Source: Pestalotiopsis fici W106-1 (taxonomy: Eukaryota; Ascomycota; Sordariomycetes; Amphisphaeriales; Sporocadaceae). Taken from it: a DNA stretch of 64,000 nucleotides. The notes beneath the pieces are model-generated. The model worked only from the letters and a program-made list of their open reading frames with translations, was not told the origin of the DNA and ran no database searches. The position numbers were made by a program, and so were the translations under genes. Shown here in pieces: positions 2,805-63,522 of the stretch. Within the stretch, counting starts at the first letter, position 1. The number at the start of each line of letters is the position of its first letter. The stretch lies in the NCBI RefSeq assembly GCF_000516985.1, contig NW_006917096.1, forward strand, positions 3,705,606-3,769,605, read 5' to 3'.

Positions 2805-4935
2805 ATGTCCGAGAACGAGCAACAGCAAGGTGACACCAGCGAGTCCCGTCATACAGATTATGACATTTCCAAGGCGATACAGTCGACCCACGGTCTGCGC
2901 CAAGGCCTGACATCATACGGAGATGCACACTTTTCCTTGTTCCTTCGCAAGGTCTTTATCAAGGCGCTTGGGTACAGCGAAGATGCATTGAGCCGACCTA
3001 TTATCGGTGTTATCAATACGTATTCGGGATTCAATCCGTGCCATGCCAATGTCCCCCAATTGATAGATGCTGTCAAGCGTGGTGTTCAGCTCTCTGGTGG
3101 CCTTGCTATCGACTTTCCGACGATCAGTATACACGAGTCGTTTTCATCGCCCACCAGCATGTTCCTGCGTAACCTCATGAGTATGGACACGGAGGAGATG
3201 ATCAAGGCGCAACCTTGCGATTCTGTTATCCTCATTGGCGGTACGCTCGATCCTGGACCCTTCCAATCTCCTTGTCTTGCTTGCGCACTGCCTGCCTCAG
3301 CATCTCTTGGGTCTCCTACTAACAAGAGGGCTTGGCCCTATGCTATAGGCTGTGACAAGACGACACCTGCCCAGCTCATGGGAGCTCTGTCCGCCAACAA
3401 GCCAGCTGTGCACCTCGTAACGGGGCCAATGATGCCCGGCAGCCACCGCGGAGTTCGCGTCGGCGCCTGCACCGATTGCCGCAATAACTGGGCAGCATTC
3501 CGGGCTGGCAAGATTGACATTGAAGATATTTCAGCGATCAATGATGAGCTGGCACCAACAGCCGGTACTGTAAGCAACTTCCGATGTCATATCTCTCCCT
3601 TTCCGAGTTGTCTCATGAGCAAGCATTGCCCAAATTGGTGCTGCAAAAGAGCATACTCAGACAAATTGCTCAAAAGAGTTGCTTCAAACTCATTTATCTA
3701 CCCGAATAGGCAATTGCTAACACATGATGTTGTAGTGTGGCGTTATGGGCACCGCCAGTACTATGGCTTGCATCCTCGTTGCCCTGGGTCTCATGCCATT
3801 CGCTGGCGCCTCAGCACCGGCCGTCTCGTCGTCGCGACTACGCATAGCCGAGGAAACCGGTCGCATTGCAGTGCAGCTGGCCACTAACAAAAAGCTAAAT
3901 CCACAATCGCTACTTTCGCGAGATTCTTTTCTAAATGCCATCACCGTATTGCAGGCTATTGGTGGCTCGACCAATGCTGTTGTACATTTAATGGCTATAA
4001 TTGGTCGTCACCCCAACGTTGCAGGCACTATTACACTGGATACAATCGACGAGATCGGCCGCAAAACACCATTGCTAGTCGACCTCAAGCCGAGCGGCGA
4101 TAACTACATGACTGATTTCCATAACTCTGGAGGCATGTTGTCGCTTTTATACAAGCTTAAGCCGCTATTGCACCTTGGTGCTTTAACATATACTGGTTCT
4201 ACGTTGGGCGAAGAGATGGCTCGGTTTGCGCCGATGAAGATTCCCCAACAGCTCAGCCACATCCAACCTTTTGATAACCCGTTGTATCCAGCCTCATCAT
4301 TGGTAGTATTACGTGGTAATCTAGCACCGAATGGTGCTATTATGAAGGCGAGCGCATCCAAAGACCGCCGCCTTTTACAACACAAGGGCCAGGCCGTTGT
4401 ATTTCGGAATTCAGAAGATATGGCGCGGCGGCTGGATGACCCAGCACTGCCCGTGACAGCCGACAGTGTACTCGTTTTACAGCATATCGGTCCTAAAGGG
4501 AACCCTGGTATGCCCGAGGCTGGTCTCACTCCTATCCCGACCAAGCTTGCTTCGCAAGGAGTTATGGATATGCTACGATTATCGGATGGTCGTATGAGCG
4601 GTACTGCTGGCGGCACCATTGTCTTGCACATCTCCCCCGAATCGGCCCATCCCACCTCGGTCTTGGGAATTGTTCGTGATGGCGATACTATCATTTGCGA
4701 TGTGGCGAATCGCATACTACGGGTCGAGATTTCCGACGTTGAGATTGCAGCTCGTCAAAAACAGAGAATGGAGACTCCCGAGGACGCTGCCGGTCTAATC
4801 ATGCCCGATGGACCTGTTGCTACAGAGAGAGGCTACCGCGGATTGTACAAACGAACTGTGTTGCAGGCTGACAAGGGTGCTGACTTTGACTTCTTGACTG
4901 CGCAGGGTCCTGAACCCCAGAGGCAACGGGATTAG
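2805..4935 (+). CDS. IlvD/Edd-family dehydratase (dihydroxy-acid or sugar-acid dehydratase)
   Basis: Exons 2805-3240, 3349-3569 and 3736-4935 total 1857 nt, or 618 aa. The start is the ATG of MSENEQQQ; upstream in-frame sequence is not family-like. The three expected Fe-S ligand cysteines are present: Cys79 (NPCH), Cys147 (GGCDKTTPA) and Cys220 (TCGVMGTAST). The C-terminal domain carries the DGRMSG motif. The family dehydrates 2,3-dihydroxy acids to 2-keto acids, either in branched-chain amino acid synthesis or in sugar-acid (arabonate, xylonate, gluconate) breakdown. No mitochondrial presequence is evident, and neighbours are an SDR, a lactonase and two carriers, so sugar-acid catabolism is preferred over ILV3 function. 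Intron 1 is a stop-free multiple of three. Intron 2 is an introner-like element. Confidence 0.88.
3570..3735 (+). mobile_element. introner-like element, copy A (intron 2 of the dehydratase)
   Basis: A 166-nt intron with donor GTAAGC, branch TGCTAACAC and acceptor TTGTAG, nearly identical to the intron at 63282-63447. Gapless alignment by eye gives 22 differences. Nucleotides 3-10 (AAGCAACT) are perfectly complementary to nucleotides 108-115 (AGTTGCTT). Just 5' of the branch site is a degenerate hairpin with loop CCCGAA. Insertion is phase 0, between Thr219 and the TGT codon of Cys220. The sequence also reads through without a stop in the preceding frame for many codons before shifting. Confidence 0.8.
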
Positions 4936-61119: not shown

Positions 61120-63522
61120 TCATTCCACTATGTGACTGGAAAGGCTCTCTACCAGTGATAAAGATCCACTTGACCATGTCCTAGTGATATTGGATTGAGC
61201 AAAGCTTTCCGTTTGTGACCTTTCACTCGTTTCGAACTGCCTACTCTGCATTGTCTCAATAGCATGTCTTGCAATCGTGACATCGCCTCTCAGGCTCTCG
61301 AGCAATTTGAAACAAATTTCGTATCCTTGAGAAGACCTTTCTCGAACATGGGAACAACCGTGGACTGCAGATATGGCCAGATCATCGGCAGCCACGGCCA
61401 CAATGTGGACACCATGTATTGGCAGATAACGTTGTATGTCCAACTGGCAGAGTACCTGAATAATGTGGGCGATTTTGATCGATGATTCTCGAATCTTGAT
61501 TTCCGAAAATGAATGGATTTGGCACCGATGCGAGGGGCCACGATGTAGAAATCCCCGGTACAAGCTCGAGACGGCGGAATGGTACAGTATATGAACCATC
61601 GCGCGTTTGATTAGCTGACTTTTATTGTACATATCCGTGGGTCGCCTTGACTGCTCTGGCCAAGAACAGGATACCGGAAGCTGATCATACCAAGTCTCGA
61701 GCGGCAGGTTGTCCAAGAGCACTTGGCTTCTCTGACATTCTTCCAACCCACATCGGGCTCCATTTCCTACATCAGTCTGGTATTGGTTGACAAAGACTGG
61801 ATATTGCAATCTTTTGGCTTTCATGATGCATACACATAGGTTGACTTTTGCGACGCACAGATCCCTATGCTGTGCTAATGAAGTAAATAGGCTTGTTCTT
61901 TCTGATTCGTCTTTAACGATGAAGCCGTCAATTTTCAGCTCACCCGGCTCATACCGGAAATCATCCTCGTCGAGATTGTGGTCCTCTTCAAATATCCGAG
62001 TCGGTCTGCCTGAAATGCATCCTATCTCATAATCAGCCATTAAGCACAACCATGATAGTCTCCGCCCAAGCTTTTCCCTTGATGCGAATAGGCTTGGTGT
62101 GTCACTTGCTTCGCCCTCATAAAAGTGCGGAGAAAAAGCTAGTGAGATAGCATTGCCCGTGTAGTACCAAGCAACCCTGTAATTATCCGCGACGTCCTGG
62201 CCACTGGCTTGCAGTAGTAATGATTGGACGCGGGTCATGTGATCGTTCTCGTAGTTTGAATCATACAATAGCTGTTTTATGTTAGAAAAGATGTGTTCAA
62301 AGGAAAATAGAAGAAGAGAAAAAGGTGCTTTCGCACGTTTATTTTGCTGTTGATGTCATTGCGGGCAGTCTCTCTGCTATCGTAACCAGCCATCTCGAGC
62401 ATGGGGATGTCGAGATATGATAAAGACGAGAAAATGACGGCATAGAATAGTAATAGGCTGACTTGTTCGGATGAAGAGCTTGGTGATGTAACAGCGCGAA
62501 GGAAGTGTCCCAAGTCCAAAACAGGCAGATCTGGATAAACAAAAGTGACAAATAGCTTCAACATGGATTGCTGGACCTCAAATAGGGGCAAATTAAGCAA
62601 TCCGGATGATGAGTAGTCACCAAAAGTTGTCAAATTTGATTCCAGCGGTCGGATGAATGCTGGCAGTCGTGTTGAATCATTGTGAGCCCTGGTCGGTACC
62701 TCCACCAAGAGACTCGACTGCTGATGGGCATTCGGTGAGTTGCACCCGCCGTGATATGCCTCATTTGGCAGAAAGCCATCCGATTGCACTTCTAAAACAT
62801 CGACTATAGATGATTCAACAGCGCCATCGAGATCAAAAGAAACAATTTCGTGTGCAGACTGACCGGCGTCTCCAGAGGCTTCGGTTTGCCTTAGCTGGTT
62901 GAACTTGCATTCTTACAATGAGATAGCTTACAATCGAGAATCCGAATATCCTCATCCAACTCGAGAAGGTTTTCTTCCTGTTGGAGCACTTCTAAGCGGG
63001 AGGTATCTTGTGGAAATGTGTCCATGGGGGTGGTGGCAATGTTAGATGGTGTAGTAATTCGGAACAGCTCATGTGAGTTTTCATCGCTTGCTGGTAACTG
63101 AGGCACACATTCCCGCTCGGCATGTTTCCGGGTTGATAATCTAGACCTAGCACTCGTTTTTGTTAGTTTCTTGGCGAAGCTTTATTAAGTGACCAGGAGA
63201 CATTTTTGTGGTAACTCACCTCCTTCGGTATTTGTACTTCTGTGGTGTACATTTCACCTCATGCCATTTGCAGTTGCTACACTACAACAACATGTGTTAA
63301 CAATTGTCTATTCGGGTAGACAATTGAGTTTGAAGCAACTCTTTTGAGCATTTTGTCCGAGTTTGCTCTCTGGAAGCACTGATTTGGGTAATGCTCGCTC
63401 ATGAGACAACCCAGGGAAGGGGAGAAATGACATCGGAAGTTGCTTACTGGTATCTTTTGAGAAATATCACATCTTACTTTTCGGGCCCGACAAACAGTGC
63501 AAGCTTCCGCGCCACGCTTCAT
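61120..63522 (-). CDS. Zn2Cys6 transcription factor with fungal-specific TF domain
   Basis: Exons 63522-63448, 63281-63220, 63146-62932, 62878-62337 and 62271-61120 total 2046 nt, or 681 aa. The zinc cluster at residues 8-36 (Cys8, 11, 18, 26, 29, 36) is split by intron 1 between Pro25 and Cys26. Introns 2-4 are ordinary (73, 53 and 65 nt). The middle homology region is recognisable: LFVTFVYPDLPVLDLGHFLRA, then YAVIFSSLSYLDIPML and VAWYYTGNAISLAFSPHF, GRRLSWLCLMADYEIGCISGRPTRI. A nuclear regulator binding CGG-type sites; the target is unknown, though the convergent MFS gene and the CCGTC-rich promoter at 2.5 kb are candidates. Intron 1 is the second introner-like copy; the zinc cluster depends on its splicing. 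Confidence 0.92.
63282..63447 (-). mobile_element. introner-like element, copy B (intron 1 of the Zn2Cys6 gene)
   Basis: A 166-nt intron with donor GTAAGC, branch TGTTAACAC and acceptor TTGTAG, aligning without gaps to 3570-3735. Just before the branch site it has a perfect 10-bp stem CAATTGTCTA / TAGACAATTG with loop CCCGAA. In copy A this stem has two mismatches and a wobble, so copy B looks closer to the master element or is under structural constraint. It lies in phase 0 before the TGT codon of zinc ligand Cys26. Confidence 0.8.

Follow-up and report, generated by a model that had tools for sequence, protein, structure and literature searches.

A family of at least 52 related introns in Pestalotiopsis fici, probably spread by RNA-mediated copying to exon sites before TG

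The genome of Pestalotiopsis fici W106-1 (Sordariomycetes, Amphisphaeriales, Sporocadaceae) contains at least 52 related introns, which the ordinary spliceosome is predicted to splice out and which probably spread by RNA-mediated copying to exon sites that precede a TG. We regard them as a family of introner-like elements because of the number of copies, their intron signals, the agreement of reading frames across their junctions, and the existence of pairs with 99.4% identity in unrelated flanks. An earlier note, made from the sequence, had proposed such elements from two similar introns in the window (the whole 64,000-nucleotide stretch analyzed), and the finding of many introns similar from end to end at unrelated sites of one genome supports that proposal.

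These two introns are each exactly 166 nt long; aligned gaplessly, they show 22 differences over the 166 positions, as first noticed by eye, and their similarity (E = 1.7e-52) is far above chance expectation. Both start with GTAAGC and end with TTGTAG. Copy 1 (positions 3570 to 3735, plus strand) lies in phase 0 between codons ACT and TGT of a dihydroxy-acid dehydratase gene (PFICI_09581; 2805 to 4934, plus strand), and copy 2 (63282 to 63447, minus strand) lies, also in phase 0, between codons CCA and TGT of a Zn2Cys6 transcription factor gene. The host exons are thus unrelated, in agreement with the earlier note, and the borders which it had drawn for both introns are backed by protein homology. 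The dehydratase translation from the window equals the P. fici protein PFICI_09581 at every residue outside an ordinary 108-nt intron (3241 to 3348, plus strand), which is in frame, contains no stop, and is spliced out in the database gene model. At the protein level this model excises copy 1 exactly, as one unit, and the junction is gapless in 14 homologues as well as in the model. In the case of copy 2, the zinc-cluster spacing RCDISQKIP/CSNC (the slash marks the junction) was the same in all 11 homologues inspected, 8 of which were aligned. The host of copy 2 resembles cutinase transcription factor 1 beta, with 31% identity at best; its gene model (approximately 61123 to 63519, minus strand, with inner introns partly resolved) did not close cleanly, and no identical P. 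fici protein was found within the length range of the assembled product. This gene may be unannotated or decaying.

Searching the P. fici genome (51.7 Mb, 20 contigs) with copy 1 yielded 40 scored matches among 48 candidates, all with E values of 1.2e-32 or lower, with identities of 77 to 100%, mostly spanning nucleotides 1 to 166, and distributed over 14 contigs and both strands. Queries with two of the divergent copies and with two patterns for the ends added 12 further places, older or internally deleted, among them shortened introns of 61, 63, and 91 nt. The resulting total of at least 52 copies is a lower bound, as only the best candidates were scored in the searches; the earlier note had anticipated a larger family in this genome. 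One member, L075, joined the family once the tests of frame, phase, and background had been run, so these comprise 51 copies. Knowledge of the family guided the placement of borders, which favors TG where two AGs compete nearby; in L032 and L036, the border at the 3' end was corrected by hand. The pattern for short copies found three places, two of them already family members, and a control pattern found one match. The third place (C7:3296942-3296987, plus strand), a short GTAAGCAAC...CTAACAC stretch, is possibly a further shortened family member. Rfam, at its gathering threshold, gave no match within the window, and no in-frame retained copy was found in other proteins when the 55-residue translation of copy 1 was searched against length-limited candidates. 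In PMC4320822, the P. fici genome is given as 52 Mb in 118 scaffolds with heavy RIP, and public RNA-seq (GSE60046) is listed.

As bordered, all 52 copies begin with GTAAG and end with AG, the last three bases being TAG in 45. A branch motif of the CT[A/G]A type was present in 49 copies and TTAAC in the remaining 3, copy 2 included; the branch A stands 15 nt from the intron end in 39 of the 52, as it does in copy 1, whose putative branch site, assigned by resemblance, is CTAAC at 3717 to 3721 (plus strand). Just ahead of the final TAG, the copies carry differing numbers of TTG units, mostly one or two and up to four in L006; the variation was also noted in L014, L023, L026, L029, L034, L036, and L040, and it resembles that in the 3' tails of certain retroelements, or simple slippage.

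When the longest open frames were chosen separately for each side, 39 of 51 junctions showed agreement (P = 3.5e-10 for an expectation of one in three), and the agreement dropped to 5 to 7 of 51 when the downstream exon was moved by 1 or 2 bases. This independent-frame test was used instead of an earlier one, which asked for open frames over 60 nt on both sides and discriminated poorly (47 of 51 versus 38 to 39 of 51 in shifted frames). Retention of the intron would lead to a frameshift or a stop in 48 of 51 cases; frame 0 of the intron itself is free of stops in 26 of 52 copies, a proportion not judged significant. Among 40 joined peptides, Pfam matches crossed the junction above the curated cutoff in 17 and below it in 6, and no match extended across it in 17; this test left out L001, L022, L031, L034, L038, L067, L069, L070, L072, L074, L075, and L076, and the tyrosinase matches reach only 4 residues beyond the junction. 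Among the 31 copies that were not part of the training set of 21, the sense frame read across the joined exons scored higher than the antisense frame in 26, but the two sides settled on one and the same sense frame in only 13. Copies without Pfam support were assigned to genes through open frames and codon use, and the placement of some of them, L031 and L038 above all, is uncertain. These results bear on the earlier expectation that copies would lie mostly in coding genes and in sense.

The copies have probably spread between unrelated genes. The closest pairs, L025/L027 and L007/L019, share 99.4% identity across their 166 nt, and the flanks of the 12 closest pairs are equal at only 4 to 11 of 20 bases, the shared TG being counted in. 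The nearest paralogue of the dehydratase (on C4, 77% identical) runs continuously through the site, with no intron. It might be argued that the copies were inherited through gene duplication or gene conversion, with no movement of introns, and three tyrosinase paralogues (L024, L032, and L037) do share a copy at a homologous site, before a conserved Trp, with introns 82 to 86% alike; this trio may represent one old shared insertion or parallel insertions. As an account of the whole family, duplication has hardly any probability left and was rejected because of the unrelated flanks, with the tyrosinase trio as a possible exception; the hosts, moreover, are spread over many Pfam families. In a tree built from the 48 copies measuring 130 nt or more, several young, well-supported pairs stood beside long old branches, from which copying seems to have continued over time.

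At the 3' border of the introns, the downstream exon opens with TG in 48 of 52 copies, with T as the first base in 51 and TGG as the first three in 32; the exceptions to TG are L014 (TT), L033 (TC), L071 (CA), and L076 (TA). The reading frames of the same hosts have TG at 7.1% of 41,463 positions, and against this background a count of 47 of 51 has P = 1.7e-49. Ordinary introns of the window and of the fetched loci were followed by TG in 11 of 65 cases (Fisher P = 2.4e-17), a control set that was predicted by rules and surely contains false introns; it superseded a stricter first set of 15, in which TG followed 4 and which included a family member, L066. The value for ordinary introns (17%) compares with 7% in the coding background, and some of these introns may be worn-out members of the TG family or of a similar one. 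In the window, the TG after copy 1 (3736 to 3737, plus strand) belongs to an invariant Cys codon, TGT, and that after copy 2 (63280 to 63281, minus strand) to a conserved zinc-cluster Cys. Since both are part of Cys codons conserved in the homologues, the TG predates the intron at both sites.

The target signal is one-sided, as the upstream exon shows little: information amounts to 0.28 bits at position -1, where A or G is preferred, but to 1.86 bits at +1 and 1.49 bits at +2. T is found at +1 in 51 of 52 copies and at -1 in only 3, and A is found at -1 in 23. Insertion was thus seamless, as judged from border composition and from the gapless homologues at both window sites, with no sign of a target-site duplication in the border base composition of the 52 copies. 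These data bear directly on DNA transposons of the type known in algae, in which an introner arises through target-site duplication and co-option of a splice site. The compact element with constant ends would suit such an origin; however, the T at +1 has no counterpart at -1, the upstream exon is patternless, and the repeated sequence itself contains the two splice sites. This origin was ruled out by the border composition and is considered very improbable.

Codon phase 0 was in excess as well. Read from the longest joined frame, phases 0, 1, and 2 at the TG sites were in the proportion 31:14:2, compared with 8.8:16.6:21.7 expected from the TG positions in the same genes (P = 5.8e-17), and in the 17 copies with Pfam support above the cutoff they were 13:3:1. 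A retained GTAAG in phase 2 produces an immediate TAA, so selection may be partly responsible for the phase bias.

In 35 of 52 copies, nucleotides 5 to 9 could pair with bases -7 to -3 in a 5-bp stem near the intron ends, namely, in 20 of 21 young copies and 15 of 31 older ones; its persistence in young copies is to be expected anyway. In copy 1, the possible arms are GCAAC (3574 to 3578, plus strand) and GTTGT (3729 to 3733, plus strand), the latter 2 nt from the intron end. The stem is part of the predicted minimum-energy folds of the consensus, L007, and L025, and is absent from those of copies 1 and 2. No compensatory changes were seen in it, and the predicted folds were not clearly more stable than those of shuffled sequence (z values from -1.9 to +0.1). 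A consensus RNA structure (-2.79 kcal/mol, with a double change in 1 of 17 pairs) was not used as evidence because it is weak and because some complementarity between the 5' splice site and the branch site occurs in all introns of this sort.

Another explanation, put forward for Xylariales stwintrons in PMC8469720 and PMC12403724, is that excised intron RNA is ligated where double-strand breaks happen to occur; TG would then reflect better survival of the copies that precede it. The seamless, duplication-free borders are compatible with this origin, and the near-terminal stem is placed similarly to the NTIRE described in PMC12403724, although it is shorter and lacks compensatory changes. The scarcity of phase 2 (2 of 47 TG sites), where retention leads at once to TAA, also allows a role for selection. 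Random breaks, however, predict no exon bias, and TG in 48 of 52 copies is extreme; ordinary introns manage without it (TG in 11 of 65), as do four family members. We rate break ligation as unlikely.

A further explanation assigns the spread to DNA. A non-autonomous element, moving without target duplication, would have had its 3' end, GTAG, joined to a T-starting target by an enzyme such as a Helitron-like one. Single-strand (HUH) transposition likewise leaves a one-sided target and no duplication, which matches the pattern observed, and the genome contains one Helitron-like frame open over 1290 aa plus nine matches with stops. Helitrons have 5' TC and 3' CTRR ends and insert between A and T. 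The A found at -1 in 23 copies would agree with this, but the other 29 have a different base there, the 5' end is GT (GTAAG in every copy) where a Helitron would have TC, and at the 3' end most copies have GTAG (TAG in 45) in place of CTRR, with only the T at +1 conforming almost throughout. No longer element with introner ends turned up in the genome searches, which were run for other purposes. In addition, most copies apparently sit in coding exons in the sense orientation; selection could bring this about, but DNA insertion by itself would not. The open frame contains the Helitron-like match L078 (C13:98773-99357); the many stops in the nine other matches are such as heavy RIP would presumably leave. 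The intact-looking frame would allow a DNA route, to which we give a small probability as the source of the family.

What had to be accounted for was an insertion with exact ends and without duplication that reads bases on the 3' side, and the polarity of reverse splicing or target-primed reverse transcription fits this. We infer an RNA-mediated reinsertion polarized by the 3' junction, and RNA-mediated copying is, as stated above, the probable mode of spread. The excised intron RNA would reenter the coding strand at N/TG, through reverse splicing or target-primed reverse transcription; the 3' junction would be fixed first, through recognition of TG, and the inserted RNA would afterwards be copied into DNA. 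The new copy would then behave as an ordinary intron and decay through point changes and inner deletions, the copies of 61 to 91 nt resembling late stages of such decay. Against RNA-mediated copying count the four copies without TG, the choice of borders in favor of TG where AGs compete, the shortness of the near-terminal stem and the unremarkable stability of the folds, the intact-looking Helitron frame, the uncertain placement of some copies in genes, and the fact that the spliceosome is not known to prefer TG. A narrower reading, which we advance tentatively and consider somewhat less probable than its negation, is that of a retrohoming-like spliceosomal intron with a target code of its own: its RNA would be reinserted before TG, at best TGG, in sense exons and preferably at codon boundaries, with sites set by recognition and not by chance breakage.

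The origin of new spliceosomal introns is a long-standing open question, which the P. fici family makes testable, all the more so as the ascomycete introners form, in the survey PMC9860276, a group for which no DNA-transposon signature was found. Copies that are 99% identical, the lack of any sign of duplication, and a near-absolute, one-sided TG together separate the printed models. Thus, random break ligation predicts no bias, co-option from duplication predicts duplications (the splice-site co-option model of PMC9860276), and polar RNA-mediated insertion predicts the pattern observed. If the retrohoming-like reading were true, specific recognition, and not chance breaks, would decide where introns arise in P. 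fici.

The family shares features with several known systems. The introner-like elements of Dothideomycetes are likewise similar canonical U2 introns at unrelated sites, recently and seamlessly gained (PMC4457414). They belong to another fungal class, and the site preference cited for them in PMC8469720 is AG/GY, compared with TG in 48 of 52 P. fici copies. The same paper cites a codon-phase preference for the Dothideomycete elements, so a phase bias alone is not new. Dothideomycetes, which the earlier note had named as the fungal home of such elements, do harbor them, but the present host is a sordariomycete.

Closer in taxonomy are the sister [D1,2] stwintrons and cropped sister introns of Hypoxylaceae and Xylariaceae, which belong to the same subclass. 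According to PMC8469720 and PMC12403724, these are seamless, show no duplication, and also bear a near-terminal inverted repeat able to pair in the intron RNA. They are mostly nested twin introns with repeats of 10 nt (or 45 to 55 nt), whereas each P. fici copy is treated here as one canonical intron, and its arm has 5 bp. The borders are reported to differ as well: the exons bordering 288 stwintrons carry no nucleotide bias (PMC12403724) and stwintrons show neither exon nor phase bias (PMC8469720), in contrast to the biased borders of the P. fici copies. The eukaryote-wide introner survey PMC9860276 describes groups of introns similar up to their ends, the ascomycete families lacking TIRs and TSDs; its main text mentions no dinucleotide-specific 3' flank for ascomycetes, and the P. 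fici family has one. No printed description of this family was found, in agreement with the earlier note, which knew of none; the search covered the subscription literature thinly and found no paper combining Pestalotiopsis and introner, and the family may be listed in the supplementary table of PMC9860276.

Group II introns retrohome through polar, RNA-mediated insertion with recognition of the target, from which the same seamless and target-specific pattern is expected. Unlike them, the P. fici introns encode no reverse transcriptase and carry ordinary spliceosomal signals. Since PMC12403724 and PMC8469720 report no exon bias, the strict TG target appears, within the literature searched, to be the new element of an otherwise known, introner-like kind of intron.
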